DNA from: a virus | DNA: 48,436 nt | Virus record (IMG/VR): IMGVR_UViG_3300044837_000056 | Span: 1-48,436 of that record | Reading direction: 5' to 3' (one strand) | Shown: positions 1-45,800 of the stretch, piece by piece | Layout: every line of letters starts with the position of its first letter | Numbering within the stretch: position 1 is the first letter of the stretch | The notes under the pieces: generated by a model | The model's input: only the letters and a program-made list of their open reading frames with translations | Told to the model about the DNA's origin: nothing | Databases searched by the model: none | Program-made: the position numbers and the translations under genes

Positions 1-127
1 TGCTGAAGGCGGAACCGGAGAGGGTGAATGTTCCCGATGGGATGCGGATTACGCTATTGGCCGGGGCCGAGGCGATTGCGGCATTGATGCTGGAGGCTGT
101 GACCGTTCCGCCGTTGACGGTGTTGCA
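1..127. repeat. Terminal overlap, left copy (circular junction)
   Basis: This stretch is identical to 48310-48436. The length of exactly 127 bases matches a common assembler k-mer, so I read it as the overlap of a circular contig and not as a biological terminal repeat. Joining the copies keeps the large tail gene in frame across the junction, which supports a circular or circularly permuted genome of 48,309 bp. Confidence 0.93.
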
Positions 128-292
128 CTGCGTAGTGACGCAATTCGACCAAGAACCGCTCGGGATACCCCCGGGGACGCCGACATTACCCTCCCATGTA
201 ATTGCTCGTGAAGGAGCGAGAACACCGGACCATGCCTGAGGAAATGCAGCAGCAGGAATTAGCAGCAGTAGAAGAGCGGTTATTCTCTTCAT
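1..292 (-). CDS. Giant tailspike-like protein, N-terminal part (continues at 48309 across the circle)
   Basis: This is the 5' end of a 1925-residue protein split by the linearisation. The ATG at 292-290 overlaps the TGA of the upstream gene (ATGA), which fixes the start. The first residues, MKRITALLLLLIPAAAFPQA, look like a Sec signal peptide: two basic residues, a Leu-rich core, then a small-residue cleavage region. The next stretch, with SSINAAIASAPANSVIRIPSG, resembles the start of a pectate-lyase-like beta-helix. From 292 to the end at 42824 through the junction there are 1926 codons without a stop. The role in receptor binding or polysaccharide degradation is inferred from fold type and position. 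Confidence 0.88.
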   Translation of the reverse strand, partial: MKRITALLLLLIPAAAFPQAWSGVLAPSRAITWEGNVGVPGGIPSGSWSNCVTTQCNTVNGGTVTASSINAAIASAPANSVIRIPSGTFTLSGSAFS

Positions 293-1002
293 TTGAGAGC
301 GATCGCTTCCATGTTCCATTGGCAAGAGGCGATAGTTGCAGTGGCAACGTAGGCCGCTGTTGATGTTGCTGAGAGCGTCTCCACAGCTGATACGCCCGTC
401 GTATCTTGGCGCAATGTGTAACTATGCCCTTGACCGTCTACTCCAGCAGTGGCCGCCGATCCGCAACCATTGGTCTCGAAACCTATGAGAAGATCGTTTG
501 CGTTTGTGGTTGTAATTGTGTTCGGACTGGTTGTTGGAGCGGTGCTGCCGGTGGTGTTCTGGTTATGGGCGTATCCGTCGTTACAGGCTGTTCCTGTGGT
601 CGTGTTGCCAGAAGCATAGAAGCCAGCCGCGTGGAAGTCAGTAGACCCGCTGAAGGTGAAGTTTATGCCTGTGCCGCTGCCCGCATAGTTGCAGGTATAG
701 AACACCCAGCTTTTGAAGTTGGTTGAGTTGGCATAGGCCCCGCCGTTGGCAGCGGTATAAGTGCTCCCACCATCGGAGACAGCCGTGACAGAGGTAACAC
801 TGGCGCTCGTCCAAACAACGAAGGCTACTGCATTACCCGCAGACGGCGTGCCCGTCCATGAGCAGTCGCCCGATGTCACGCCTCCATTACTGCCGTCGCA
901 GACGTTGACGAAGGTAACGGTGGTCGGAGGAGGCCCCGAGCTGTGCGGCCTGCTCCCCATCGGCATTGACTGAATGAAGAGCAGGAGCAGGAATAGCCTC
1001 AT
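289..1002 (-). CDS. Small secreted-type tail accessory protein (237 aa)
   Basis: I chose the ATG at 1002 because it overlaps the TGA of the upstream fibre gene (ATGA) and has GGGAG just upstream; a TTG five codons earlier is less likely. The N-terminus MRLFLLLLFIQSMPMG is signal-peptide-like. The rest is Ser/Thr/Gly/Asn-rich with several Cys and predicted beta structure. It resembles the ~655-852 module of the giant spike: AG-[NS]-x-hydrophobic strand, then Gly-rich turns, then a closing M-x-A-hydrophobic strand. It may be a stand-alone copy of that domain. Its stop overlaps the start of the giant spike gene, so the two are translationally coupled. The function is unknown; a spike partner or adhesin domain is an inference. 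Confidence 0.8.
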   Translation of the reverse strand: MRLFLLLLFIQSMPMGSRPHSSGPPPTTVTFVNVCDGSNGGVTSGDCSWTGTPSAGNAVAFVVWTSASVTSVTAVSDGGSTYTAANGGAYANSTNFKSWVFYTCNYAGSGTGINFTFSGSTDFHAAGFYASGNTTTGTACNDGYAHNQNTTGSTAPTTSPNTITTTNANDLLIGFETNGCGSAATAGVDGQGHSYTLRQDTTGVSAVETLSATSTAAYVATATIASCQWNMEAIALK

Positions 1003-4000
1003 CGGATCTCCCGCCAATTGACGCTCATAGCTCCCGGCGTGATCGAACTTGAGCTTTCATTGCATCGCTTAAGGTTGAAGGTGTTGGTCGTTGTCCAGAT
1101 TCGGAAGCTTATGCCGCCGCTTGTACCAGCGCCGTAACCTGTGACTCCCGTTGGGTCTGACGCATAGGCGTAACTTGGTGCATCCGTTGTTGCCGCCCCT
1201 GTAGCGGTGGCTGTCGTCGCGGAGGCATCGCATGTATTCGCAGCTAATGCGGTGACGGGTACGACTAACGTGCCGCTCGCAATCGTTACCGTGCAGGTCG
1301 GGCATGAAATAGCCGGGGTTGTGCCGCCGGAGCTCGCAATAGGCGCGGTTCCGGTAACCGAGGTGACTCCACCCGCTGCAGCTGACGTCCATGTGCATAC
1401 TGCCGGATTCGCCGCCGTGCATGAGAGATATGTATTGCCAGCCGTGGGCTGTGCGCCGGGCAGGTTGACCGCATAAGCCGTTACTGCGGTCGGCGCGTTG
1501 ATTTGCACCGTGCTTGCGGCGGCAGCGGTGGGGGCCGTTCCTGCTCCAAGGCTAAAGTTTCCAGCCTTCCCTGTTGCATCATTGACAACGAGTGCGCCAT
1601 TAACATCTACCTCATATGGCCCACCGAAGGCTCCCAGACTCTTCAGAATAAGCGGGTAAGTTCCGCTTGTGTCGAGTAGAAAGCACATCTGGTCATACTC
1701 GGGGCTGGCGAATCCGAGGTTATAGACAATACCGCCTTCGCGCCCGTCCAGTACGCCATCGAACTTAGTGTGTGTGCCGTACCCTTGACCGCAACCCGGA
1801 AAGGTGAAGTTGCCAACTATGCTGACGGCGGCCTGTGCAGTTGTGGGAGTACCAACTGCTCCGAGATTCACCTTACCCCCGTTCAGGTTGTTCCCTGCAT
1901 TCACGTCTCCAACCGAGGTGAGCACGGGAGCTTTTACTCCGTATGTCTCGAAGAGAAATTGAGAGTTGGGAGCATCGATTGCAATACCCGAACCTAGCTG
2001 ATGGTCGCGAAACAGGTACTTCTTTCCCGCATCGCTGGAGGTGTTTTGGAAGCAAAGGATTACCGGAAGGCCGCCGCAGCTCGTAAGGCCACCCGAGTTG
2101 AGGAGTGTATCGAACTCGGCAAAATTGCCCATCGGCCCGTTGATACGAACTCCCGGAGGCCCGCTCAGGTACCCTGATCCGCCGCCCCCCATGTAAGAGC
2201 TGAGTGGCGCGTGATTGAAACCGTCAAAGAATGGGTGAAGGCTGCTGTGCTGCGTGTTGGTTTTGAACTCAACCCTTATTCCAGCTCCACCTGACTGCGG
2301 ACTATCCGGCGAACTGGCAGTTGAGTTGAACTGCCCCATAACCTCGAGAATGGGCAGGCCGGTAGGCGAGGCGAACGTATGCCCATTTGCCCACGCAACG
2401 CTATTGACCTCAAGCGTGCATGATGTGTTGGTGGAATTTGTGTTGATACACAGGGCGCCGGGATGGACTGTGACACCGCCCGTCAAGGTGCGCCCCGCAG
2501 CTTCCCCTCCGACGATAGGGAGATTGGTACCGCTGAACGTTCCGCCTGCACGCTGCGCGATGAGGAGATGACTTGTATCCGGTGCACCCAGCACGTAGAT
2601 GACGGAGTGCAAGCCGGTCACGGTCATGTCATCGTCAAAGTCGAGGAATCCTTGAGTTCCACCTTTGAAGATGTAGCTGCCGATTGGATGAGGCTTAGAG
2701 CACGAGATTGTGCCGGTCTGTGTGGTTGTTCCCGATACCGTAAGGACGTTGCATTGCTCTGGCTGATTGGGGGTGGCAACGAATACCTTGCCAGTGGTAA
2801 GCGCCAGGGTGTCGTGAACCGTGCAGGTAAAGTTCTGCGTCTGATAGACACCCGGCACCGTGCTACCCGGAATGTTTGTAGTTACAACGACACACTCACC
2901 AGTGGAGGTCGTCGCAGTTCCAGCGGTAACGGCTAGGTTGCCGATTCCCAGCGAGTTTGATTCCCACAATGCAGAGACTGTGCCAGTGAGCGCTGTGTGT
3001 AGAGTCGTGAGTGACGTATCAATAATTATCCCGTCGTTGATGAGCGTTCCCGCACCGTTTATGTTTACGGGGGTGATCGCAAAGACTGGGTTCGTGTCGC
3101 CCGTTCCGGTGGTTGACGAAATGGTTCCGGTTGCAAAGGCTGAGTTCTGAGTGCCGTTGATGACGATACCGCCGCAACCTTCGTCACTCGATGCCGTCCA
3201 CATGCACGAACTGAAACCCAGAGCGTTTCCTTCATAGACAACGAAGGAGTCTCCGCTCGATGGATAGCTTAGATTTAGGTGTATTCCTTGATGGATTCCC
3301 GCCGCGCCACCGTAAGAATCAACCTCTTGGCCTACAACTACGCGCTCCGGTAATCCCGCCGCGAATCCCCCGTTTCCCGCTACTCCCGAGTTGGTTGCCG
3401 TGACGTGCTGGCCTCTGTTGTCTGAGCCAGACCCGTCAGACCGAAGCACGCTGGAGTCGCTTTGAATGTCGCTTGAATAGTTGGGATTTGAGTTGTTGGG
3501 GTTGAGGTCAACGGTGTGTTGGCCAAAGAAGCCAGTCATGGATTGATTGATTGTGTTCAGTTGATGCGTCGTTCCGGCCGTATAGGTGAAGTTGCCAGGA
3601 TCGGCTCCGAAGGTCGTTCCATTGAGTTGCGTCTGCACGTCGTTCGGCGTGCCTGCTGGGGGAGCCCCGCTCCCAGTAATGGTCACGGGAGTGCAGCCGG
3701 TCACGCGGCCCTTGGCATCTTTAGTGATCTGTCCGACGTGGGTAGCGTCGCCGCACGTTCCGGCAGTCGTTACCGTTACCAATGAAGAGGCCGCAGAGCC
3801 GGGGCCAGCAGCAGTTACATCGCCCGTTAGAGCCGTGATGCCGTTCGTGCCACCGGCACCACCCAGCGAAATCGGAAAGATGCCCTGCACGACTCCAGAC
3901 CTGGGGAACTGAACCATGTAGAAGTAATTCCCTGCAGCAGCATAGAAGCCAAACAGCCCTTGCCCGTTCGTGATGAGGGGATTCGCTGTCGGAACCGATA

Positions 4001-4208
4001 GCCCCGGATCGCTGAAGATTGAAGCCTTTGTTGCGCAGGCACCATCAACGCATACCGTCACAGTAGAGCCCGGTATTGCCATCACATTGGCCGCTGAACC
4101 CGCAGGAACATTGGTCGCAACCGTGGCTACCCTTTGGTCGTAGCGGACTCCTTGACCGAGTGCAGACGCACAAAGACACGCCGCCGCGAGAGCTGCGATA
4201 AGCTTCAT
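999..4208 (-). CDS. Tail fibre/receptor-binding-like protein with signal peptide (1069 aa)
   Basis: ATG at 4208 is preceded by a strong AAGGAGC. Residues 1-18 (MKLIAALAAACLCASALG) form a Sec-type signal, followed by QGVRYD. The first ~115 residues are clearly paralogous to the next gene upstream: in the 36 residues starting GQGVRYD about two thirds are identical. The middle is long and Gly/Asn/Thr-rich, consistent with a fibrous beta fold. The C-terminus has a GVTSVTGTAPI linker and a final domain starting AANTC that ends near a conserved Cys-Asn, and it also resembles the end of the upstream gene. It therefore shares both ends with its neighbour and has a different middle, as expected for mosaic receptor-binding proteins. 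Function is inferred. Confidence 0.85.
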   Translation of the reverse strand: MKLIAALAAACLCASALGQGVRYDQRVATVATNVPAGSAANVMAIPGSTVTVCVDGACATKASIFSDPGLSVPTANPLITNGQGLFGFYAAAGNYFYMVQFPRSGVVQGIFPISLGGAGGTNGITALTGDVTAAGPGSAASSLVTVTTAGTCGDATHVGQITKDAKGRVTGCTPVTITGSGAPPAGTPNDVQTQLNGTTFGADPGNFTYTAGTTHQLNTINQSMTGFFGQHTVDLNPNNSNPNYSSDIQSDSSVLRSDGSGSDNRGQHVTATNSGVAGNGGFAAGLPERVVVGQEVDSYGGAAGIHQGIHLNLSYPSSGDSFVVYEGNALGFSSCMWTASSDEGCGGIVINGTQNSAFATGTISSTTGTGDTNPVFAITPVNINGAGTLINDGIIIDTSLTTLHTALTGTVSALWESNSLGIGNLAVTAGTATTSTGECVVVTTNIPGSTVPGVYQTQNFTCTVHDTLALTTGKVFVATPNQPEQCNVLTVSGTTTQTGTISCSKPHPIGSYIFKGGTQGFLDFDDDMTVTGLHSVIYVLGAPDTSHLLIAQRAGGTFSGTNLPIVGGEAAGRTLTGGVTVHPGALCINTNSTNTSCTLEVNSVAWANGHTFASPTGLPILEVMGQFNSTASSPDSPQSGGAGIRVEFKTNTQHSSLHPFFDGFNHAPLSSYMGGGGSGYLSGPPGVRINGPMGNFAEFDTLLNSGGLTSCGGLPVILCFQNTSSDAGKKYLFRDHQLGSGIAIDAPNSQFLFETYGVKAPVLTSVGDVNAGNNLNGGKVNLGAVGTPTTAQAAVSIVGNFTFPGCGQGYGTHTKFDGVLDGREGGIVYNLGFASPEYDQMCFLLDTSGTYPLILKSLGAFGGPYEVDVNGALVVNDATGKAGNFSLGAGTAPTAAAASTVQINAPTAVTAYAVNLPGAQPTAGNTYLSCTAANPAVCTWTSAAAGGVTSVTGTAPIASSGGTTPAISCPTCTVTIASGTLVVPVTALAANTCDASATTATATGAATTDAPSYAYASDPTGVTGYGAGTSGGISFRIWTTTNTFNLKRCNESSSSITPGAMSVNWREIR

Positions 4209-4233
4209 TTAATGCTCCTTGGTTTACTGGGTT

Positions 4234-5922
4234 TTACTGCTCGATCAGAAAGGTGTAGGTGTCGCCCGTAGTTGGGAAGATGGTTGACGCGGTCACATTG
4301 CAGAACTGCACATTAACGTGATCGACTGCGGCATACTGAGCACCAATAACGGCCAGTCCCGCCTGTGCGGTCAACTTGGTTACGCTCGCCACCAGATCCC
4401 CAGATCGCACTCCCGGCACGCCCATGTCCTGAAACGCGCACGTATTGGCGGCAACAGAGGAGGCTGAAGCTACGACGGTGTACTTGACGTGTTTGATTGA
4501 GCACGCCGCGAAAGCACAGTTGTTTGTGAGGAGGGGAATGGTTCCATGATCGGATAGGTTCAGCACGCCTACCAAATTCAGCGTATTCGTTGTGGAGGCC
4601 GTCGCCCAATTAACAAAGTTCGTTACGGGATGGTAGGACTGAACCATTGTCCCCGTCATCCTCAAAGACCCTGCCGAACCGGAAACAACATTTATCATCT
4701 GTGGGTCGGTCCCCGTTGTCAGAGATAAAAGCATTTGGCCGCCGTCAATAAAGACGTTGAGCCGTGGGTCAGTAGTGGCCCCGATAGTAAGAATGGTGTT
4801 CGAGCCTTGTTCGAAGTGCATCCCAAAGAAGTGTGCTGTAGCAGCTCCAGTCACCGTGCCGCAGGTGTCGTTGTAGTCGCAGCGCGAGCCGTAGAAATAG
4901 AAGTCGGAATAGCCGACGAGGTTGATGCCTTGAGCGTTGTTTTGAATCGAGGTAGCAATGAAGCTTATCGATTCGCCCGAATTTGTAACCGATCCCGGAA
5001 AAAACAACCCGGTGCCGTTACTGGTGATAACGCTTTCATGGAAGCTGTTATCCCATGCGTTATTCCCCCACTGCACGCCAATGCCAAAGTTTTGGATGTT
5101 CATCCTGTTGAAGTTCTGGTGGTCGCCAAAACTCGCGCCGGGGCTGAGCACTCCAGCAGGATCGCCGCCGATATAGATGGCTCTTGCTGCCGTCCCCGTA
5201 CCGGGACCAACTAGACGCAGGTCGCTGATTGCCCCTTGTGGGTAAGACTCTACTGCATCTGCAATCACAAATGCCGCTCCGGTTGTCGGTGTCCATGTGA
5301 GGATCGTGCTGGTTGCGCCCTGGCCTTCAATGTTGATGCAGGCTGGCTTTACTACTGGAGTGGTCTGCGTGTAGATTCCCGATGGGATAAGAACAGTTCC
5401 GCAGTGACCTGAAAGGAACACAATCGCCGCATTGATCTTTGCTCCGATATCACCGCCTGCAAATGTGGCTGCGTTCGCCATGCCGTTCAGGACGTTAGCG
5501 CTGAGCATAGATCCTGCTGGCTGGATAATCGTCTGTGAGGCGTCGGGGCTTGCGTTGATGCCTATCGTATTAAGGGAGAGGATGTAAGTTCCTACCACTG
5601 AGCCTGATTGCTTCTGAACCGTCTCGCTGTAGATTCCCGGTGCGATATAGAACCCATACCGCCCTTGAGCGTCGGCATTTATTGGGTTATTGATAGCCTG
5701 AGTCAGTGCTAAATCTGAATAAATAGGCACAGTATTCGTGCAGGGAGCTCCGGCGGCTGGGATATTGCAGATCGTGACGATTGCCCCTGGAACTGTCATT
5801 ACATTGGCGATTGCGCCCACGGGGACGTTAGAGGCAACCGTTGTAACAGAGGAATCGTAGCGAACGCCCTGTCCAAAGGCCGTTCCGGTAACCAAAAGAC
5901 ACGTAATTAGTAACTTCCGCAT
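4234..5922 (-). CDS. Beta-helix tailspike (pectate-lyase-like) with signal peptide (562 aa)
   Basis: Two in-frame ATGs exist, at 5934 and 5922. I prefer 5922 because AGGAAA lies 4-6 bases before it and the product then starts directly with a signal peptide (MRKLLITCLLVTGTAFGQ). The QGVRYD N-terminal domain (~19-120) is shared with the downstream fibre. Residues ~140-460 hold GDIGAKINAAI, VLIPSG and repeated turns typical of the Pectate_lyase_3/tailspike beta-helix, followed by an AANTC-type C-terminal domain (~480-562). A bidirectional terminator lies just upstream, so the tail block may have its own promoter, though no convincing one was seen. Confidence 0.87.
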   Translation of the reverse strand: MRKLLITCLLVTGTAFGQGVRYDSSVTTVASNVPVGAIANVMTVPGAIVTICNIPAAGAPCTNTVPIYSDLALTQAINNPINADAQGRYGFYIAPGIYSETVQKQSGSVVGTYILSLNTIGINASPDASQTIIQPAGSMLSANVLNGMANAATFAGGDIGAKINAAIVFLSGHCGTVLIPSGIYTQTTPVVKPACINIEGQGATSTILTWTPTTGAAFVIADAVESYPQGAISDLRLVGPGTGTAARAIYIGGDPAGVLSPGASFGDHQNFNRMNIQNFGIGVQWGNNAWDNSFHESVITSNGTGLFFPGSVTNSGESISFIATSIQNNAQGINLVGYSDFYFYGSRCDYNDTCGTVTGAATAHFFGMHFEQGSNTILTIGATTDPRLNVFIDGGQMLLSLTTGTDPQMINVVSGSAGSLRMTGTMVQSYHPVTNFVNWATASTTNTLNLVGVLNLSDHGTIPLLTNNCAFAACSIKHVKYTVVASASSVAANTCAFQDMGVPGVRSGDLVASVTKLTAQAGLAVIGAQYAAVDHVNVQFCNVTASTIFPTTGDTYTFLIEQ

Positions 5923-5942
5923 GTATTTCCTCATTTTGGGCG

Positions 5943-5972
5943 CTAAAAATCCGCCAGATTAGGCGGTTTTGG
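5943..5972. terminator. Bidirectional intrinsic terminator
   Basis: The inverted repeat CCGCC/GGCGG (5951-5955 and 5962-5966) has a 6-base loop and is followed by TTTT on the plus strand and by ATTTTT on the minus strand. It separates the ejection-protein operon from the tailspike block on the minus strand. Confidence 0.65.
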
Positions 5973-6030
5973 GTGTAATCTATTTGCTCTGTAGTACCGG
6001 GCTCGCTTGCTACTCTTTCCTGAGGTTCTT

Positions 6031-6195
6031 ATGCTGACTATTGCTGGTGGAATCCTTCTTGCTTTTGGAGCGTTTTGGGCATTCGCCTTTATGCTGCTAT
6101 TCATTGCCTCAAGGCTGTTTAAAGCTAAGCCGTCTACTTCCCGCCGAGACGCTTCCCCAACTTCATCGCGGTCTGCGGTACAAAACCGGGCCTAG
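6031..6195 (+). CDS. Possible small membrane protein (54 aa)
   Basis: ATG at 6031 follows TGAGG at a good distance. The product begins MLTIAGGILLAFGAFWAF and is one long hydrophobic segment (~30 residues) followed by a basic, Ser-rich tail. It converges with, and overlaps, the 3' end of the ejection-protein gene on the other strand. It could be a holin-like or toxic peptide, but there is no clear promoter and the frame may be fortuitous. Confidence 0.28.
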   Translation: MLTIAGGILLAFGAFWAFAFMLLFIASRLFKAKPSTSRRDASPTSSRSAVQNRA

Positions 6196-7579
6196 CCACT
6201 AAGGGCGTTCCTTCGGGATTTTCAAAGCGATCGATTGCGGAATTTACCAACGCATCGCTATCCGTCAGGTTGCCCAGTCCCTTCTGAACTGCATAATTCC
6301 ACGCCATGCTCAGCGGGTTTCCGTGACCGCTCACAATCTTCTGCGAGAGCGTCACGGGGTCATGCCGTGCAAAGACGGGTTCGCGCTTATTCGCGATATC
6401 CGAAACGTCTGACAACAGGCCATATTTACCCTGCATGTCAGCTACGGCACCTGAAGGTAGACCGGCGCCGGATTCAAGTTCGGGATAGAGAATTTTTCTG
6501 GTCGTGTCTCCAACTGCCTTTACTCTGGCCGTTTCCGGATTAGATAGCGCTGCAGCCTGATCGCCGCCAGCCTTGTTATAAAAAGCGTTCAGCTTGGCGT
6601 TGGCATCACCCCGGACGGCATCAAGGGTAGGAACATCAAAGCCTGCTCGATACGGTGCAGCCTTAGCCGCTGTATCGTTGAGAATCCCCCCACCGACAAC
6701 TCCATTAGCATCGGGAAAAGTCTTGGTTCCAGGCTTCTCGATAAGGTCCATCGTGGGGATGCTCTTGAGTTGTGCATCTGCAATGGGCGTGCCATCGATC
6801 CGGCTTGGCCGAACTGGGCCTTCCACGCCCGACTTCAGTGGGCGGTAAGGTGCAATGAGATTGTTGTATGGTTCAAACGATGCGTCCTTGGCTGCATCCG
6901 CCGCTGAAGCGAACCCAGATACACCATTCAGGCTTGGGTTTGCCGCGAGGACATCGGGGAGAGCCTTCTCCAGGCTGTCACCGACGCCAGCGCCGTACTT
7001 AACACCGGGCTTGAGTGCGCTTTGGAGGAGTTCGCCGGGGGTTCCCGTCGTCAATGCACGAGTCGCCGCAAGGCTGAGACTTGGCGCGTCCGCTGAAGCA
7101 ACCCTTAGACCAGCACCAACACCCCTGCCCGCCGTACCTAGAACCTTGCCAGCAGCCTGTGGCGCGGCGAAGCCTGCGATCGTACCGGCGAGAGTGCCAG
7201 CCATGCCAAGATTATTTCCCGCGTCATGTTGAGCTTGGGCTTGCGCGAGTGCGGGGCCAATAACGGGTACAGCGCGTCCAAAGTCGCGCCGGGTGGTTTC
7301 AGATAGGCCGTTTTTCTTGTAATCCTCAACGCCTTGCCCAAGCTCTCCAGCGATGCGCCTTCCCTCGCCAGCGATAGCTCCGGGGATGCCTTTCACCGTG
7401 TCGTAAGGGTGGGCAATAGCGCCAAGTAGCCCATTGAACCCCGAGGATTCGCCAACAGACGAAAAGAATCCGCGCTGCGAGTCCGTCCCCGGTGCAGATG
7501 GAGAGGCGGGCTTCGCGATAGGGGCATAGGGGTCGTCTAGGGGCTTGGCGATAGCCGCGTAAGGATCTTGCTGGCCCAT
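6134..7579 (-). CDS. Ejection (internal virion)-type protein (481 aa)
   Basis: The start ATG overlaps the stop of the upstream gene (TAATG at 7579). The N-terminus contains a repeated DPYA[AP]IAKP element. Residues ~40-170 are Gly/Ala-rich with amphipathic or hydrophobic stretches (AGTLAGTIAGFAAPQAAG) as in proteins that enter membranes during DNA ejection. The C-terminal half is more polar. Three such Ala/Gln-rich genes in a row after the nozzle-like gene mirror the P22 gp7-gp20-gp16 arrangement, so I call it ejection-type by position and composition, not by a recognised domain. Confidence 0.72.
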   Translation of the reverse strand: MGQQDPYAAIAKPLDDPYAPIAKPASPSAPGTDSQRGFFSSVGESSGFNGLLGAIAHPYDTVKGIPGAIAGEGRRIAGELGQGVEDYKKNGLSETTRRDFGRAVPVIGPALAQAQAQHDAGNNLGMAGTLAGTIAGFAAPQAAGKVLGTAGRGVGAGLRVASADAPSLSLAATRALTTGTPGELLQSALKPGVKYGAGVGDSLEKALPDVLAANPSLNGVSGFASAADAAKDASFEPYNNLIAPYRPLKSGVEGPVRPSRIDGTPIADAQLKSIPTMDLIEKPGTKTFPDANGVVGGGILNDTAAKAAPYRAGFDVPTLDAVRGDANAKLNAFYNKAGGDQAAALSNPETARVKAVGDTTRKILYPELESGAGLPSGAVADMQGKYGLLSDVSDIANKREPVFARHDPVTLSQKIVSGHGNPLSMAWNYAVQKGLGNLTDSDALVNSAIDRFENPEGTPLVARPGFVPQTAMKLGKRLGGK

Positions 7580-9096
7580 TATCGAATCACCGTATGCCCG
7601 TGAGATTGAATGTCTTTCACCACATCATCCTCAGATTTTCCCTTGTTTTGTGGAAGCGCCATTGCGGATTTTAGGTTTACGCCCATACCGCTTCCAGCGC
7701 CTGCGCCCGCAGCTCCTGCGAAGTTAGCCTGTCCGTTTGCGCCAGCCTCGGACTGCCCTTGGAGACCCTCTAGTTTTCCTTTAGCCATAAACCGCACGGT
7801 ATTAGCCCCGCCATGCATCTGCTTAGGCGAACCATCGCCGGAAAGGTTCTGGTTGAACTGATTGATTTCAGCCTCACCCGGTACGCCGCCAGTCCAGAAC
7901 CGTGCGGCCTCCATTGCGACGCCCTGACGAATGAGGGCTAAGTTAGTCTGAGCGTCACTACCCAGTTGAATGCCCATCTCATTTCCGATGTGGTTGAGAA
8001 TCTTTATATCGCCGTTGTGTACGGCATCCACGGCCTTGTCGTAGAGGTCAAGGTGGTGGTTCAATGTCGTGCCAGCCGTCAGCGTTGCTCCACCCTGCCC
8101 ACTGGTCATATACTGGCGTACCGCGTTTTCAATGTCGTGATCACCCGAGTTGTAGGCAGGGTTCACCCCTTTGACGGCTGCGGCGAACTGGGCCTTCTGA
8201 TTGGTGGTCGCACCACGCCCGAACACGTCGGAGAGCTTCAGGTCGCCCTTAGCGACAGCATTAATTGAAGCCTGCATCGCTGGATCGCTCGTGTCGAGTC
8301 CGGCATTCTTTGTCGAGGCACGGTCGGCTGCGGCCGCATTCATCACAGTAATCTTCGGTTCTGTCGAAGTGGCGCGGATGGTCGCTGCAATCGCATCGGT
8401 ATCGGAGGCTTCAGGATGGGCCTTTTTGTAGCCGTCCAAGAACTGCTGCTGAAGTGTGGCGTCCTTCGTATTCTTGGCCTGATTGATGGCCGCAAATGCT
8501 TCCATCGGCTTCATGCCACGAGATACGGCATCATTGAAAGCCTGCTGATCGGGAGGCACCGGCTTTGCGATTGGGTTGTCGCGAGCGTCCGTCTCAGATT
8601 GCAGGTTTCCAGTCTGTGCCTGCAATAGCGCGTGCTTGTCGGCTTGCTCTGTCGGTAATGCCGCAGTTTGGGCCTGCTCTTGGGCGGTTCTAGCCTGCGT
8701 TCCTGCCGTAGTCGCGCCAGCCTGCTCTTCGGCCTGATCCTTAGCCACATTGTTCGTAGCCTGATCCACCAGCATATTGTGATGCAAGGTAGTGCCGGGG
8801 AGGGCCGTCGCGAGCCTTGGCGCAAAGACTGAGGCTGTTATGTCTCCAGCCCTTGCAATGCCTCTCACGAGGGGGTTTTTGATTTGGTCGATGCCCGAAC
8901 CCTTGTTTATATAGTCGTCGCGCTTCTGGATGTCCTTCTGCGTCTGCGTAGGAGGTGGAGGAGGCGCAAGCGATACGCTGGGCAGTACCGAAGCCCCCAA
9001 GTCAGGCACAGCACCGGGCATGGCGATACCTGTACCGAGAGCTGGGGCTGCTGGTGTCCCACGAAAAGCCGCGATGAGAGGATTCAGGTCTGCCAT
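7579..9096 (-). CDS. Ejection (internal virion)-type protein (505 aa)
   Basis: Starts MADLNPLIAAF and ends one base into the next gene's start codon (TAATG). The N-terminal third is Pro-rich (APPPPPTQTQ). A long Ala/Gln/Glu-rich helical region follows (~115-190), then a mixed helical C-terminal half with a Gly/Ala-rich segment near residue 460. There are no enzymatic motifs. Composition and its place between two other Ala-rich genes suggest an injected virion protein. The family was not identified. Confidence 0.7.
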   Translation of the reverse strand: MADLNPLIAAFRGTPAAPALGTGIAMPGAVPDLGASVLPSVSLAPPPPPTQTQKDIQKRDDYINKGSGIDQIKNPLVRGIARAGDITASVFAPRLATALPGTTLHHNMLVDQATNNVAKDQAEEQAGATTAGTQARTAQEQAQTAALPTEQADKHALLQAQTGNLQSETDARDNPIAKPVPPDQQAFNDAVSRGMKPMEAFAAINQAKNTKDATLQQQFLDGYKKAHPEASDTDAIAATIRATSTEPKITVMNAAAADRASTKNAGLDTSDPAMQASINAVAKGDLKLSDVFGRGATTNQKAQFAAAVKGVNPAYNSGDHDIENAVRQYMTSGQGGATLTAGTTLNHHLDLYDKAVDAVHNGDIKILNHIGNEMGIQLGSDAQTNLALIRQGVAMEAARFWTGGVPGEAEINQFNQNLSGDGSPKQMHGGANTVRFMAKGKLEGLQGQSEAGANGQANFAGAAGAGAGSGMGVNLKSAMALPQNKGKSEDDVVKDIQSHGHTVIR

Positions 9097-9977: not shown

Positions 9978-10480
9978 CGCTTGGGCGGAAGCACGCTGTT
10001 ATTGAACTGTGCTCCATAACCCGATACAGCATTACCTGCCTGCGTTGCTGCCGCAGCTGGAGATGCCGTATCTACCGGCGTTGGGTGATAGGTATAGTCC
10101 GAGGGCCCAGATGTCGGGTACTGGGAATAGGTGCGGATGTGTGCCTTCCCTGAAACCGGACTATCGCCGCGCCAGTTGTGCGTTGCGCCTAAATGGATCG
10201 TGTGAAATGTTGCAAAGGAAGAATCTGGCGATACATCCGCAAAGCGTTCTGCACCACGATATGCCGGTGATGGGTCGGATATCTTGATATCCAGCTTTCC
10301 GCCTCCACCCGTTGCGTTTACTGCAGCATGGGAGGGTGGGGGTTCAATTTGGCCGACTGGGGCCACGTTTATTTGCTGGGCAATGTTATTGTGAACATCC
10401 TGCAAGTACTGGAGAGCCTTGCCAATCTCGGGATGCTGCTGAATGATCGCAGACAGTTGGGGCACGCTCGCATTGGCCAT
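9974..10480 (-). CDS. Small virion/tail protein of unknown function (168 aa)
   Basis: ATG at 10480 overlaps the upstream TAA (TAATG). A helical N-terminus (SAIIQQHPEIGKALQYLQDV) is followed by a Pro/Gly-rich linker and a beta-type middle (GGGGKLDIKISDPS... ATFHTIHLG). The C-terminal part is low in order and rich in Tyr, Pro, Thr and Ala. No family was recognised. Placement directly after the nozzle-like gene suggests a tail or needle component. Confidence 0.62.
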   Translation of the reverse strand: MANASVPQLSAIIQQHPEIGKALQYLQDVHNNIAQQINVAPVGQIEPPPSHAAVNATGGGGKLDIKISDPSPAYRGAERFADVSPDSSFATFHTIHLGATHNWRGDSPVSGKAHIRTYSQYPTSGPSDYTYHPTPVDTASPAAAATQAGNAVSGYGAQFNNSVLPPKR

Positions 10481-13400
10481 TAGCTATTCTTTCCTCTAAT
10501 CGGGCTGTAAGGGTCTGTCTTCACTGCAAGGGTCATAGACGACAGCCGGAAGCCTGCAGGAGCATCGGGAGCGGCTGGCAGCACACCAGCGGGCTGGCAG
10601 CATACGCGGTAGCTGATTCTCTCTGCTGCTACATTCAGGCCAAACTCAAGGTCGCGTGCAAGATCTTCTGTAACAGAAAGTGCCCGCGTTGGCCGTCCAG
10701 TGTTGCCTAAGCGGTCAAGATTCGGAACTAAAAACACGCTGCCTACTCCGGTGCAGTTCGATGTCATGAATGCATGTAAAAGTCTGTGAACGCCAACCTG
10801 TCTTTGCTGAGCTTCGTCTACTGAGACAAAGAAATATGTCGGATAGGTGGAGCGGTGCCAGAACGGGCCATAATCCGCGTCGATTCCGTCAATAACGCCT
10901 TCGTTCAACGTGTAAACCGAGGAAGTCCAGTGGGTAGCCAAAGAAGATCCACGGCCACCGCAGAAGGCCATGACAGCTTCACCATTCGGCTGTGTCAGCA
11001 GTCCGCAGTAGTTCATGGTGAGGCTCCAAGGTGACCACTTTCTGGTGAGGTCTGTTGTTACGACTTTGCCAGAATAGCCAATCCTCAAAGTCCCTGAATT
11101 AGCCAGCAGTCCAGCCGTATTCAGCTCGCGGTAGTCAAGAACGTACATCGCATTCGTGACGACTGACGTTCCGGTTGCTCCGCCGAGATAAACCCTGCGC
11201 GTATAAGGATCGTTCGAAAGAAACGTAAACTGCTTGGCCTTTGGATTCAGCGAATTCCACCACGGCTGAATCTCCTGGCTCATCTTGTCAACGCTTGCAC
11301 CGTCGAAGATTCTCAGGCCTGTGTCTGATGTCCAGCAGAACCAATCCTCAAACTTCGTTACACCCCAAACTGACACTAGGCCGCATTTCGAGGCGACATG
11401 CCGAATGTTCCACGTGGCCGGTTCGCCCGAGGCCGTCTGCTCTGTCTCGTATAAAGATCCTTCTGGCCCCGATGTCAGGAGGCAGAGAACGTCCTTCCGC
11501 TCTTCCATGCCAAAGACTGGGTGAGGATCGCCAGCAGGCCCGAGAATTCCCGTTACCCCATCGACCGCCTCGGGGTTGTTTACATAGGAGGCTTTCGCAT
11601 TCAGAATGTACGGGTTGTTGGTGTAGATAATCTCTATTTCGTCAACCGTGGAAGTCCCGTGCTGCTCGATGCTGAGAATCAGGTCTGAGGGTATCGTTAG
11701 CGGCGTGGGTAGTGAGAAGATAAGCTGGTCGAATTCGCCAGCACCTCGAATTGTTGCCTGACTTACATACCGCGTCGAAGCCGAGCTTAGCGTTGCAATT
11801 GAAACTCCATTAATCCATCCACGATAGGTATACTGCGTGTTGGGCTGGATGATTGCGATACCGTTCTGATCCTGAAACGCCGACTGGCTAATAATTGCAG
11901 TGGTCGCCTGCCATGCGAGGCCGTAGTCTCCAGCCGTCAATATTCCATCAGTGCCGGTGACCATCCAGCCCAGAGGATTGTTTGGCGTATCCGAGAAAAC
12001 GCCGCCCTCAAAGCCCATGTTCTTGAACTGCTGAATCTTGTTTCTTTCGCCCCAAGAGAAGAGCCGCGAGCCGTAGCTGAAGAAACCCAGAACTGGCCCT
12101 AGAACCTGCTGGCGGAGGAGATTGTTTCCTGCTTGGTCGATTCCTATTCCAGCGAACAACGCTTCGTCTGTGAAGTCAAAGATTGCCGAGTTCGTGACGT
12201 TGTCTGGGATTACGGTTGCCGTGCCGATGGCAAACTGTCCAGCAGGATCGCGCGGGGGAACTGGGAGAACGAAGTACTTGCCACCGTTGGCGCCAGTGAT
12301 GCCAAACCATCGCTCCGTAACGTTTGGAGGTCCGATAGCCGTGCTTGTTAGCAACAAATACTGCCCGCCAGAAGCTGTGATCTGCACTGGGGGGCTGGGA
12401 ATCGTCAAATAGCCTGTTCTCGTCCTGAAGATTTCGACAATCGAGTGCTGGCCGGGTGAAATCTGTCCCGTTGGTGCCACCATCCCAGCGCCAGACTGAA
12501 TCGAGGCGTTCGGCCCTGTCTGGTTGTAGGTAAACGAGACCGAAGAGAGCACTGAGGTCACATAAAACTGGCCATTCCATGGAAACGTTATCGCCCCAGT
12601 CGTAAAGGTCGCATCCGCGCCGGTCATCGCAAACTGGAATGTTGTCGAGGAGGGTACAGAGGAGATAGTAACCACTGTTCCCGTAGGTAAGGGAAAGGGT
12701 GTCGTCAGGGTCGCTACGGTTCCCGAGGCGGCCGTCGCACCTGGCACTGAAATAGTAATGACTGTCGGGGAGACCACGGTATCGACAAAGCACGCGACCA
12801 GATAGCCCGTTCCAGTTGACTGAATAACTGAATTCCCCGGCTCAAGAAAATGCGGGGTATTCGTGGTCATCGTCAAGATCCCGCCAACAATGCTCCACGA
12901 GGCAACGCCACCACCGACTACAGCGGGGAGGACGTTGGCGATTGCTACCTCATCTCCGGGGACAAAGCCGTGCGGTGATGGCGTGGTAGCAGTCGCTATG
13001 CCGTTCAGAGTCTCGTTGTTGACAACGATCGAGGTCAGAGACTGTGATGCATCGGGCACTCCAGAGACAGAGGCTTTATACCCAACCCTGAGCCCGTTCG
13101 GTACTGCGGTCGTTGCCGTTACAGTGTTATTCGTCCTCACCAGCAAAGGCGTGGAAAAAGTAACCGTTCCACCTGTGCCCGTTGCATTGCTTTGCGTGTA
13201 ATACGAGACTTCAAACTCTGTGGCGCTGTCCACCGCTGAAACTGTTGTCGTGCCGATGCTGTAGAGCGAGTTCCCCGCAATCGCTATCGTGTCGCCAACG
13301 TTCAAGCCATGAGGGGTTGAGGTGTCGAACAGCAGCGACGTGTAATAAGTCTCGAAGGTTGGGGGCTGGTATCCGCCATCCTGTTCAATCGGCCCTCCAC

Positions 13401-13950
13401 CTGTCTGTACTTGGGTAGGGTCGATAGGAACCGCAGTCGTAATGGTGACTGGCGATCCGCTTGAGCCTGCGACCAACGCTACTGCGGGGAGAGCATAGTT
13501 CGTGACCGTAGGCGGTGCACCGGGGCCATCTTGACTTACGCGGTCAAGGAATCCCTCTGGGGTGTATTGCAAGGGCACGTCAGCACCATGCAGGCCGTCA
13601 GACGTGGCAATGTACATCTTTCCGAAGGCGTTGCATGTAAAAAACCTATTGCCCGCATGAGTCTGGCCGAACGGCACCCCATCGGCATACATTCCACCAT
13701 CCGAGGTAAAGGTGAGCTGTGAAACTGTGCCGTCGGGCTTCAGAAAGCTTGAGGTGTAGACCGTCTGCGCAGTCGTACCCATCGTTGCTAAGAGTTTCAG
13801 GGAAGGCCGGGTAAAGACGGAGCCTGGAAGAAAGGCACAGTCGGAGTTGTCTGGTGACAACCCCGCTGGTAGATCGGTTGGCTGCATCTCGAGGTTGTTG
13901 CCCCCGAACACATCCAGCCCTATCTCTGTGCAGCCTAAAACATTATTCAA
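10480..13950 (-). CDS. Tail nozzle / DNA-stabilisation-like beta-rich protein (1156 aa)
   Basis: The TTG at 13950, with GGAAG about nine bases upstream, is the best start. The opening, with LDVFGGNNLEMQPTDLPAGL then SPDNSDCAFLPGSVFTRPSL, is the pattern of phage proteins in the gp10-like nozzle position: a short N-terminal arm, a 'lower-quality' loop and a PGxVxxRP turn. Residues ~150-500 hold repeated beta units with THGLxxGDxI-type turns. The C-terminal third is propeller-like (FCWTSDTGLRIFDG, VYLGGATG, MYVLDYRELN). It is much longer than P22 gp10 (472 residues) because of the inserted beta repeats. Assignment rests on position and pattern. Confidence 0.72.
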   Translation of the reverse strand: MNNVLGCTEIGLDVFGGNNLEMQPTDLPAGLSPDNSDCAFLPGSVFTRPSLKLLATMGTTAQTVYTSSFLKPDGTVSQLTFTSDGGMYADGVPFGQTHAGNRFFTCNAFGKMYIATSDGLHGADVPLQYTPEGFLDRVSQDGPGAPPTVTNYALPAVALVAGSSGSPVTITTAVPIDPTQVQTGGGPIEQDGGYQPPTFETYYTSLLFDTSTPHGLNVGDTIAIAGNSLYSIGTTTVSAVDSATEFEVSYYTQSNATGTGGTVTFSTPLLVRTNNTVTATTAVPNGLRVGYKASVSGVPDASQSLTSIVVNNETLNGIATATTPSPHGFVPGDEVAIANVLPAVVGGGVASWSIVGGILTMTTNTPHFLEPGNSVIQSTGTGYLVACFVDTVVSPTVITISVPGATAASGTVATLTTPFPLPTGTVVTISSVPSSTTFQFAMTGADATFTTGAITFPWNGQFYVTSVLSSVSFTYNQTGPNASIQSGAGMVAPTGQISPGQHSIVEIFRTRTGYLTIPSPPVQITASGGQYLLLTSTAIGPPNVTERWFGITGANGGKYFVLPVPPRDPAGQFAIGTATVIPDNVTNSAIFDFTDEALFAGIGIDQAGNNLLRQQVLGPVLGFFSYGSRLFSWGERNKIQQFKNMGFEGGVFSDTPNNPLGWMVTGTDGILTAGDYGLAWQATTAIISQSAFQDQNGIAIIQPNTQYTYRGWINGVSIATLSSASTRYVSQATIRGAGEFDQLIFSLPTPLTIPSDLILSIEQHGTSTVDEIEIIYTNNPYILNAKASYVNNPEAVDGVTGILGPAGDPHPVFGMEERKDVLCLLTSGPEGSLYETEQTASGEPATWNIRHVASKCGLVSVWGVTKFEDWFCWTSDTGLRIFDGASVDKMSQEIQPWWNSLNPKAKQFTFLSNDPYTRRVYLGGATGTSVVTNAMYVLDYRELNTAGLLANSGTLRIGYSGKVVTTDLTRKWSPWSLTMNYCGLLTQPNGEAVMAFCGGRGSSLATHWTSSVYTLNEGVIDGIDADYGPFWHRSTYPTYFFVSVDEAQQRQVGVHRLLHAFMTSNCTGVGSVFLVPNLDRLGNTGRPTRALSVTEDLARDLEFGLNVAAERISYRVCCQPAGVLPAAPDAPAGFRLSSMTLAVKTDPYSPIRGKNS

Positions 13951-25242: not shown

Positions 25243-25731
25243 CTATTTGATCTTTGCCGGTGCAAGCGCAGGATTTTGGGCAACAATGGCATTCCACTGA
25301 TTCTTAAAGTCTTTAGCGTCCTTGGCGTGCGGGGCGGGCGGGAGGTTTATAGCGAAGGAGGGGGTGGCAACACCCGTGGGCTGGGCTGGCAACAGGATGA
25401 GGATTGACTGCACTGTGCCGATAGCTAATGTCACAAGCGCCGCATAGGGCTGAACCTGGGGGAAGAGGTAGAGGTCGTCCTGTACGAGCTTCAAAGCTTC
25501 AATGGCCAGCTCAGCGTTTGTGCCTGACTTCCATTCGGTGACTGCCTTTACCGCTGCTGCTGTGTCAACTGTGAGCTTTGCGGAGAGGTCTGGATTGCCT
25601 TGGATCTGGGCAACAGATGCGGCGGCCGTTCCAAGGATCTGGGTGAGGGCGGCGATCTGGTTCTGGGTGACGCAGCCGGTCAGTGCTAGCGATAGAACGA
25701 TGGCAGCGGCGGTGACGCGGATAATCTTCAT
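25243..25731 (-). CDS. Lipoprotein, possible outer-membrane spanin-like (162 aa)
   Basis: ATG at 25731 overlaps the upstream TGA (ATGA), with GAGG upstream. The N-terminus has basic residues, a hydrophobic core and a lipobox LTGC at about residues 18-21 (MKIIRVTAAAIVLSLALTGC), so it is expected to be processed by signal peptidase II. The mature part is Ala-rich and helical with a Pro-containing C-terminus. In this membrane-gene cluster it may be an o-spanin or a surface lipoprotein; at about 140 mature residues it is longer than most o-spanins. Confidence 0.75.
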   Translation of the reverse strand: MKIIRVTAAAIVLSLALTGCVTQNQIAALTQILGTAAASVAQIQGNPDLSAKLTVDTAAAVKAVTEWKSGTNAELAIEALKLVQDDLYLFPQVQPYAALVTLAIGTVQSILILLPAQPTGVATPSFAINLPPAPHAKDAKDFKNQWNAIVAQNPALAPAKIK

Positions 25732-42823: not shown

Positions 42824-45800
42824 TTACTGGTTAGCCTTGAAGGTGCCGGTGGCGCTGAAATTGCCAGAGGTTTTGAAGGAGGATCCCGTAGGCGCTGCCG
42901 AGACGTTGACCGTCACACCCGGAGAGGTGAACGAACTGGCAACTGCCGTGATTGTGTCCGCACCAACTGAAGCCCCAGTCACTACTCCAGTCGAGGTATT
43001 GATAGAAGAGTGAGTATTGGTATCGCTCCAAACTGGAGAGGTACAGGCTGCCGTAGACGAGTCAGAGTAGGTTGCTGTACAGGTCATCGCCAGGGTTCCT
43101 GATACAGTCACTGCGCCCGGATTCGGTGTAACTGCGATGGAGACAACAGTTGCTCCCGTAGCGAACACAACCGCGCCATCAGTCGGTGGCGTCGTCTGAG
43201 CGTTGCTATTGAAGTCGGTGGATTGAATGCCCGAGTAGGAGACGCCAGCCGTCCGTGCAGGACTAGAGGAAGTCAGATTGAAGGAAGGTGTTGTGATTCC
43301 CGAGAACACGTTCGCATCAATGTCGGCGTAATAGACGACGTTGGTTGTGTTGGTAGAGTTACTGTCGATCTGCTGTTCAAAATTGAGTGTGGGAGTTCCA
43401 ACAAAGGCATCAGCCGAGTAAGTGTTACCCAGCCCGGTGTAGACCGTCGTGCCGTTGACCACAAGCTTGTTATAGGTGTAGGTATGCGCTGTCTGATCGA
43501 AGGTCGTTTCGAGGTAGATGGTTTGCTTTGTGTTGGTCGTGGTCAAGACTCCCGCGCAACTGTAAGTTGGGATCGTACCGCCAGCCGAGTTTAGGACTGT
43601 CCAGCTGTTCCCAGCCATGTTCCAGAAGCGCCATTTGCCCGTAACCGAATCACATTGCATCGACGCGAAGTAGCGCCAGTTGTTTGAGTACAGGTCAGGA
43701 TCAAACTCTAGAGCCTGCAAGTGAGTTGTGCTTGAAGGGATATAGAACGACTCGCGCCAATTGATCGCTGTCACCTTGGTACAGTCGTTTATGGGGCAGG
43801 GTACGTGCAGATATCCAAGCAGGTTCGCATTGTTTCCGCCGACAGTCATAATGAGCGAATTTGGGCTCAGCGCGGTGGAACCAACCGCCACAGTTGGAGT
43901 TCCCGAAGGTGTAGAGCCTCCGGGATTGCAAGAGGGTAGGAAACATGCAACCCATGTGCCCAGAGCCCCCGGTACCTCAAGGCCATTGAAGTCCGTCCGG
44001 GGTGGCTGATTGAACACGTTCCATGTCTGCTCTGTGAAGGTGCAGCCAGAGCCGCCGCTTACCAGGCAAGGTGCGGGCTGATTGACGAATAGAGGAGAGG
44101 AGCAAACGTCAGTGACGAAGGTGGAGCAATTCTCGGAGCGCACGCCAAACCAAAGATTGTTCGTCCGGTTGTTAGTTGTGACCGTCTCTGCTGGGTTCAG
44201 GCCGGTGTTGTAGAAGAAGCCACCGATACCGCCATTGTTGCCGCCGTAGTCTTGCCCAGCCGGGAAGGTGATGTTTGGCACTGCGTTCTCTAGGCCGTAG
44301 GTCAGGTTGTTTTGGAAGTTCAGGGTGGTGCCTGGATCGGCATAGGCTCCCTCCCAACCTTGGAGGAGGACTGCTGTCCCGAAGTAGGTAACGAAGGTGT
44401 TGTTTGAAATCGTAATCGTGCCGAGGGAATGGTAGTTCAAGCTCAGCAACGAACCGGAGCGGCAGAAGTCCTGAAGGTTGGCATTGAAGGAAGATGGAGT
44501 GCCTGTAATTGGCTTCGACATCACAGAGCAATTGCCGATGGCTACTGTATTAAGGATGGTTACAGGTGAGGCGTTCGGGCCAGCCTTCCATGTTCCACCA
44601 CCGTTGCCGAATGCCGTTGATTTGGTGATGACCAAAGGAGCCTTAGTCTGATCGCTATAGCCCGCTCCCGTTGGCCCTGCATCAGAGTGGCCAAGGTCAA
44701 GCGCATCCTGAACGTTGTAGAGGAACTGACTACCAACGATGTTTGCAGCGATAGACCCGCCCGGAGGCCCGCCTACAGCGTCACCGTAGCCAGCAGTGCC
44801 TTGTGAGTAGCAGCTTGTAACTGGTATGGCAGAAACGAATGGGTACTCTTGATTACAACCTGACCATTGAAGGGTCGAACCCAGAAAGTCCCATTGGCCG
44901 TTTACCGATGGGGTTCCATTCCCGCTGAAGTTGCCGTAGATGTCAGGGAACGCGCCAGAGCCGTCATCAAAGTCCCACCCAGCCTCACCGTTTGTATCTA
45001 TGTTGCATCGCGTACACCTGACAAGTCCGCCGATTGCGCCCTTAGAGCCACGGTCAGGGAAGCCATGAATCCACATATCAGTTAGGAAGACGTCGTGGGT
45101 AGACTGCGACGTGTGGAGCCCGTCCGAGGCGTAGTCGTTGACGGGAGAGGATGGAGTGCCGCAGTCCGAAGGCAGGGCAGGCGAGCCATGCTGGATGCAA
45201 TTGCCGTTGCGCGTCAGATTGATGCACTGCACATCGACATACTGAGCACCGCTGAGGTCAAGAACGGCACCGAGGCCGAACCCGCCGAACACGTAAGTTT
45301 TGGAAGAATTCGCAGAGCATGAGGCAAAGTTCTGACCGAGGATGCGGGTGTGTTGGCCAGCCGTTCCTGATGGAATTGGAGGGTTAGAGCATCCGTTGAC
45401 ACCTCCACCCCAGCACCATGTAGAGCCGAAGCCCGCCCCAGTGTTGTTGTCATAACCCAGCCGGCACTGCGGAGCGGTTGTGTTGCCTGAGTTCTGCGCA
45501 TTGGTGGCGCAACCGGTGATCTTGATCGTATCTCCACCCTGCGGAAGCCACGTATTCGGGTCGGAGTTGTTGAATGTCTGCGGGTCGAAGAGGTAACGGA
45601 AATCATTCACGGCGCAGTGTTGATTGGTGCCACTGCCCGGATACGGTGCATCCGCTAAACCATCACAGCCGATTGCTGAGCCGGTGAAGGGGCCGCTGCT
45701 GCCGCCAGTCGTTGCGCGTGCCGTGGTGTAGAGCCCAGCCCCGTCTGCACGGACGTACCACGTCTGCGCAGAGGTAATGCCAGTGATGGCATAGACGTTG

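Follow-up and report, generated by a model that had tools for sequence, protein, structure and literature searches.

The tail gene block and its genome

The DNA that we analysed (the window; 48,436 nucleotides) is a complete circular genome of a soil phage with a closed length of 48,309 bp, its first and last 127 bases being identical. It encodes an integrase, two recombinases (Erf and YqaJ) and an endolysin of the VanY/M15 type, the small terminase is of the Sf6 type (PF20901, E 2e-45), and the portal gave a weak match to the P22 portal; judged by gene content, the phage is a temperate P22-like podovirus. Named phages are distant: when portal, capsid and large terminase were used as queries, only the terminase matched any of them, at about 25% identity, and its matches include the Roseobacter CRP and HMO-2011 phages. 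The uncultured relative L002 has a portal 77% identical, and tail proteins up to 65% identical, to those of the window phage. Scans of genome contigs for the portal and for the amino-terminal domain described below (N-domain) returned zero relatives.

The minus-strand gene order runs from a 1156-aa tail or nozzle-type protein (10480..13950; signal peptide absent) through small proteins to a 505-aa protein (7579..9096; no signal, zero Cys) and a 481-aa protein (6134..7579; no signal, 0.2% Cys), both in ejection-type position and the latter ahead of the block under study, which comprises genes for proteins of 562, 1069, 237 and 1925 aa and is followed by the endolysin gene. All four ORFs are present on the minus strand as described earlier, and they contain 2.0–2.7% Cys, whereas the 505- and 481-aa proteins contain 0–0.2%. 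A gene with a Prok-JAB domain (PF14464; 40758-41234, minus strand) lies near the endolysin gene. A divergent gene on the plus strand (6031-6195), which overlaps the end of the 481-aa gene in antisense orientation, encodes a 54-aa single-TM protein (MLTIAGGILLAF...), and counterparts with the motif M[LVF]T[IV]AGG[IV] occupy the same position in L002, L185, L186 and L190.

The starts of the four genes had been described as fixed by ATGA coupling or a Shine-Dalgarno sequence, and inspection bore this out. The putative 562-aa tailspike (4234..5922), which opens the block, starts with ATG at 5922 with GAGG close upstream; an alternative 566-aa start at 5934 without a Shine-Dalgarno sequence is less likely. 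AAGGAG precedes the start of the putative 1069-aa tailspike (999..4208), the N-domain of which is 42% identical to that of the 562-aa protein. The genes for the 237-aa protein (289..1002; about 2.4% Cys) and the 1925-aa protein each start in an ATGA overlap. For the 237-aa protein we found zero detectable homologues, a short protein at L008:11230 with a good signal being a positional counterpart only. The 1925-aa ORF runs from 292 to 1 and continues from 48309 to 42824, and is thus complete only through the circularity of the genome (start part 1..292, remainder 42824..48436, where 48310-48436 repeats 1-127). Pfam and PHROGs searches with the four tail proteins gave almost no matches; the 1925-aa protein contains a Fn3_assoc/CHB_HEX_C domain. 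It is about 30% identical to ‘virion structural proteins’ of the Tunturi phages, with a C-terminal module of about 100 aa in common, and this likeness to proteins of Tunturiibacter phages points to Acidobacteriota as the candidate host. The module (39-54% identity) occurs in the 1925-aa protein, Tunturi 2 gp17, Tunturi 4 gp114 and proteins of L185 and L190, all of them exported-type and otherwise dissimilar.

Signal sequences in the window, in relatives and in controls

Signal peptides were called, rather than with SignalP, with a home-made, rule-based scorer that detects 17 of 19 known E. coli signal peptides. A first version was too lax, calling 12 of 80 mostly small proteins that contain the C-terminal domain of the 562-aa protein (C-domain), with ‘cleavage’ falling within a folded domain, and was tightened; the tightened version still calls L083 and L129, which we treated as false positives. 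The 562-, 1069- and 1925-aa proteins pass, each with a basic n-region, a hydrophobic core of 7–12 aa and small residues at -3 and -1. Their predicted signal peptides are MRKLLITCLLVTGTAFG before Q in the 562-aa protein (5872..5922, minus strand; score 5.7, position consistent with the N-domain alignment), MKLIAALAAACLCASALG before Q in the 1069-aa protein (4155..4208, minus strand) and MKRITALLLLLIPAAA before F in the 1925-aa protein (292-245, minus strand). The 237-aa protein fails: by eye, Met-Arg and a Leu core give it a signal-like N-terminus, but the cleavage site is unclear, the only possible zone being SMPMG before S. Four Sec-type signals had been proposed from the first reading of the DNA, and three of them stand, the cleavage zone of the 237-aa protein being unconvincing.

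Among the 41 other genes of the window only one passes the scorer, a lipoprotein with an LTGC lipobox encoded at 25731-25243. This protein (MKIIRVTAAAIVLSLALTGC; 25243-25731, minus strand) lies upstream of the small terminase and may be a spanin-like or surface lipoprotein. With 3/4 against 1/41 genes (Fisher p = 0.001; p-values here are descriptive, related sequences not being independent), the cluster of signals in the tail block is not due to chance, and shuffled N-termini of the three passing proteins matched the observed score in 0-2.5% of trials. Read directly, the tail-protein signals contain neither a twin arginine nor a lipobox; those of the 562-, 1069- and 1925-aa proteins are therefore predicted to be of the Sec/SPase-I type, not Tat or lipoprotein signals.

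A hydrophobic N-terminus could also serve as an uncleaved helix for trimerisation or tail docking, a reading that gains from the fact that cleavage is here predicted from sequence and from the missing clear cleavage site in the 237-aa protein. The alignment of N-domain proteins speaks against it: at the cut site, position -1 is Gly or Ala in 29/29 sequences, +1 is Gln in 28/29 and -3 is Ala in 18/29, whereas the hydrophobic core is variable, and a conserved cleavage motif next to a variable core is the pattern of a cleaved signal peptide. In addition, we know of no P22-type head-binding domain that requires a hydrophobic N-terminal helix. Together with the structural and cysteine data given below, this makes the uncleaved helix, in our judgement, highly improbable.

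A profile of the N-domain retrieved 37 IMG/VR loci, and in 35 of them a signal peptide precedes the domain according to the first, laxer scorer. Since these relatives were found partly with a query that included the signal and the Cys pair, the survey leans towards signal-bearing copies; a query headed by A3, a copy with neither Cys nor signal, added zero new contigs. In L002/L008, signals are present on proteins at matching positions. In L185-L192, which offer longer stretches and were assessed with the tightened scorer, up to three consecutive genes bear signals, and more do by eye; these runs come after Cys-free or Cys-poor ejection-type genes. Many soil phages repeat the same block of Cys-free ejection-type genes, Cys-rich tail genes of exported type and, where the locus reaches it, an endolysin. 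Two further arrangements were seen among these loci. L175:10880-11248 and L178:11119-11487 encode a small signal-bearing protein with 4.1% Cys within the head-neck gene block, and in L042:4595-6585 N-domain copies without signal (518 and 198 aa) are directly followed by a 1521-aa signal-bearing protein.

Signal-bearing fibre genes also occur in cultured phages. The podoviruses Tunturi 1 and 2 and the siphovirus Tunturi 4 are plaque-forming isolates from Arctic soil with a Tunturiibacter host (PMC11924767). In Tunturi 2, 5/6 fibre-block genes pass the scorer and in Tunturi 4 2/4, while among core virion genes the count is 0/29; the gene set of Tunturi 1 matches that of Tunturi 2. Tunturi 1, 2 and 3 have one host strain in common, and in Tunturi 3 signal-bearing virion proteins numbered 0/24, so the predicted export route is an optional one. 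Among controls, 0/49 virion genes of HMO-2011 and CRP-207 and 1/372 genes of 80 other phage loci were called. The view that these tail-type proteins carry probable cleavable export signals, and that ordinary virion proteins do not, is upheld. The preliminary description had made its case depend in part on whether relatives have such signals, and we found them both in the IMG/VR loci and in the cultured Tunturi phages. As far as sequence can tell, the signal-bearing tail block is thus not unique to the window phage, and relatives and cultured Acidobacteriota phages have such blocks.

The domain behind the signal and its cysteine pairs

To the C-terminal side of the signal, the 562-aa protein has a predicted head-binding-like beta-sandwich (residues 18-119, with Cys52-Cys61; 5566..5871, minus strand). 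In an AlphaFold2 model built on 35 sequences, block pLDDT of residues ~21-120 was mostly 86-97 and that of the signal region 59-69; the model thus puts the N-terminal helix outside the confidently folded domain, a further point against an uncleaved docking helix. Tailspike head-binding domains ranked first among PDB folds, namely those of Pan3 (Z 10.9), Pam1 (9.3), Sf6 (8.7) and P22 (8.5), phage pectate-lyase spikes were among the matches in a library of predicted viral structures, and the sequence profile of the domain independently reached the tailspikes of Pan3 (E 6e-4) and Pam1 (0.03). The modelled copy is that of the 562-aa protein; the 1069-aa protein has the domain by sequence homology to it, and no head-binding-like domain was seen in the sequences of the 237- and 1925-aa proteins. 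The full-length model of the 562-aa protein is weak (mean pLDDT 53): where a trimeric right-handed beta-helix body of the P22 type would lie, it has strand-rich structure only at residues 318-455 (pLDDT ~70 at best).

Carboxypeptidase-regulatory and CnaB sandwiches score nearly as well as the tailspike domains (Z 7-8, a modest margin), and for this reason we consider it likely, rather than proven, that the N-domain of the 562- and 1069-aa proteins acts as a virion anchor. The same similarity bears on the idea that signal and first domain were captured from host secreted proteins of the CarboxypepD_reg type, in which case export would be real and its present role perhaps incidental or residual. 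Pfam CarboxypepD_reg (PF13620) matches 13/35 N-domains, mostly weakly (best E 1.3e-7), and carboxypeptidase-D-type sandwiches superpose on the domain with an rmsd of ~2 Å. However, the window's own 562-aa copy has no match to any Pfam family, phage tailspike domains come first by fold, and signal, cleavage motif and Cys residues are kept across divergent phages, which speaks for selection rather than a relic. We therefore regard such a capture with only residual function as quite improbable, and the derivation from host adhesins that had been suggested for these proteins is not borne out.

The two Cys residues of the N-domain behave as a unit: 32 sequences have both, 3 have neither and 0 have a single one, and the intervening loop spans 4-12 residues. 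Of the cases with neither, L041 and L042 lack the signal and the L044-L046 group has it. The Pan3 sequence, aligned by the N-domain profile, has neither Cys of the pair. A second pair (NTCA...QFCNVTA) was identified by comparison of the C-domain of the 562-aa protein (residues ~478-562; 4237..4491, minus strand). This pair is absent from 77/77 other proteins that have the domain and no convincing signal, which are mostly short proteins and one of which has a single Cys; adding or removing L083 and L129 leaves this result unchanged. Both residues are present in the 562-aa protein and, by eye, in the signal-bearing L010, which the script had scored as single owing to an alignment of the first Cys that was off by one residue. 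In the sets examined, the Cys pairs thus occur only together with a signal, as would be unexpected if the N-termini were mere uncleaved helices. An additional MAFFT alignment that included C-terminal fragments misplaced these fragments (A8) and was set aside.

Across proteins, the median Cys content was 1.97% in signal-bearing proteins and 0.73% in the others (p 3e-7). For the body of the 1069-aa protein, comparison with its signal-less Tunturi 3 counterpart gave no clear difference (9 and 6 Cys), and the signal-bearing L016 has only 2.

A proposed export route and known systems

An intrinsic terminator hairpin (CCGCCTAATCTGGCGG-ATTTTT; 5951..5966, minus strand) was found by scan about 25 nt ahead of the first gene of the block. 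Terminator-like counterparts were detected by scan in L186, L187 and L190 and, as a hairpin with T-run, by eye in L185; less certain sites are those in L015, reported at the gap end, and L002. A search with a sigma-70 model found no sigma-70-like promoter on the minus strand in 5850-6300. A terminator with no promoter found behind it means that expression of the block probably depends on antitermination or on read-through, a weak argument against its being expressed in the lysogen; the hairpin itself is possibly an antitermination or attenuation switch.

The preliminary description had offered export with joining of the virion outside the cell or at lysis, decoration of the lysogen's surface, and descent from host adhesins. 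The first of these is now the best supported, the head-binding-like N-domain in two of the four proteins and the Cys pairs both favouring it. Export of the tail-block spikes is a well-supported prediction, and attachment to the virion would, by inference, take place outside the cytoplasm. On balance, we lean towards the view that the spikes are virion tailspikes that leave the cytoplasm by the Sec route, form disulfide bonds in the periplasm and attach at lysis. Late in infection, they would pass to the periplasm via the host Sec machinery, signal peptidase I would cut them after the conserved A-x-G/A site, and the mature proteins would fold there and form disulfide bonds. Spike-less virions would meanwhile assemble in the cytoplasm, to be joined by the spikes once lysis opens the envelope, or in the lysate. 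Late attachment has a precedent, since spike-less P22 particles can take up added tailspike in vitro. From the signal peptides, the conservation of the cleavage motif and of the Cys pairs, the gene context and the head-binding-like fold, all computed here, we infer actual export and cleavage, disulfide formation, and incorporation into the virion with this timing.

The same signals and Cys content would also suit exported proteins that are not part of the virion, which would degrade or bind polysaccharide after release from infected cells or lysogens and remove exopolysaccharide, prevent superinfection or decorate the surface of the host. In favour of this, the Fn3_assoc/CHB_HEX_C domain is known from secreted enzymes, the head-binding-like domain is missing from the 237- and 1925-aa proteins, an integrase is encoded in the genome, and WceF of Pantoea stewartii is a host-encoded protein that combines a tailspike fold with a Tat export signal (PMC7949094). 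The genes are, however, mutually coupled and lie within the late virion and lysis block; a terminator immediately precedes them, and the promoter search was negative. This arrangement also weakens the case for lysogen surface decoration, and the occurrence of one N-domain twice per genome, on differing bodies, looks like a common virion anchor. We consider a purely secreted role unlikely.

If the favoured reading, export followed by attachment to the virion, is generalised, then virion assembly in a part of the tailed phages, those of Acidobacteriota at the least, would be divided between compartments. Heads and tail hubs would be made in the cytoplasm; the receptor-binding spikes would leave it through Sec, acquire disulfide bonds in the periplasm and join the particle only on opening of the cell, so that the outermost virion parts would be secreted proteins. 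We hold this to be an evenly balanced proposition. If true, it would overturn the rule that confines synthesis and assembly of tailed-phage structural proteins to the cytoplasm, and would offer a way for spikes to acquire stabilising disulfides in soil; free spikes might also act on host polysaccharide before lysis. Automated pipelines may misfile such spike genes as host secreted proteins.

None of the open-licence papers found in our searches reports signal peptides on the spikes of tailed phages, which suggests that a route by which Sec-exported spikes join the particle at or after lysis has not been described for tailed phages in that literature. The tailspikes of P22, Sf6, Pam1 and Pan3 resemble those of the window in their N-terminal head-binding-type beta-sandwich, and P22-like phages share with the window phage a spike gene block after ejection-type genes and the Sf6-type small terminase. 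These known tailspikes are not known to possess a signal peptide, and their folding takes place in the cytoplasm, unlike what is predicted for the signal-bearing 562- and 1069-aa spikes, and the Pan3 domain lacks the Cys pair present in the window N-domain. Use of host export is itself familiar from phage proteins such as lambda Lom and Bor, spanins and SAR endolysins, which act in membranes, in lysis or in lysogenic conversion and not as receptor-binding spikes; Lom has been treated as a phage-encoded exported protein (PMC12309495). The nearest analogue found in the open-licence literature searched is WceF, which is like the window spikes in tailspike fold and export signal and differs from them in being encoded by a host gene, in using Tat instead of Sec and in not being reported as a virion part. 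Among phages, the main text of the paper on the Tunturi phages does not discuss signal peptides and reports no virion proteome (PMC11924767). Tunturi 1, 2 and 4, though not close relatives of the window phage, share with it consecutive Cys-rich signal-bearing fibre genes, and in these cultured phages the proposed route is directly testable.
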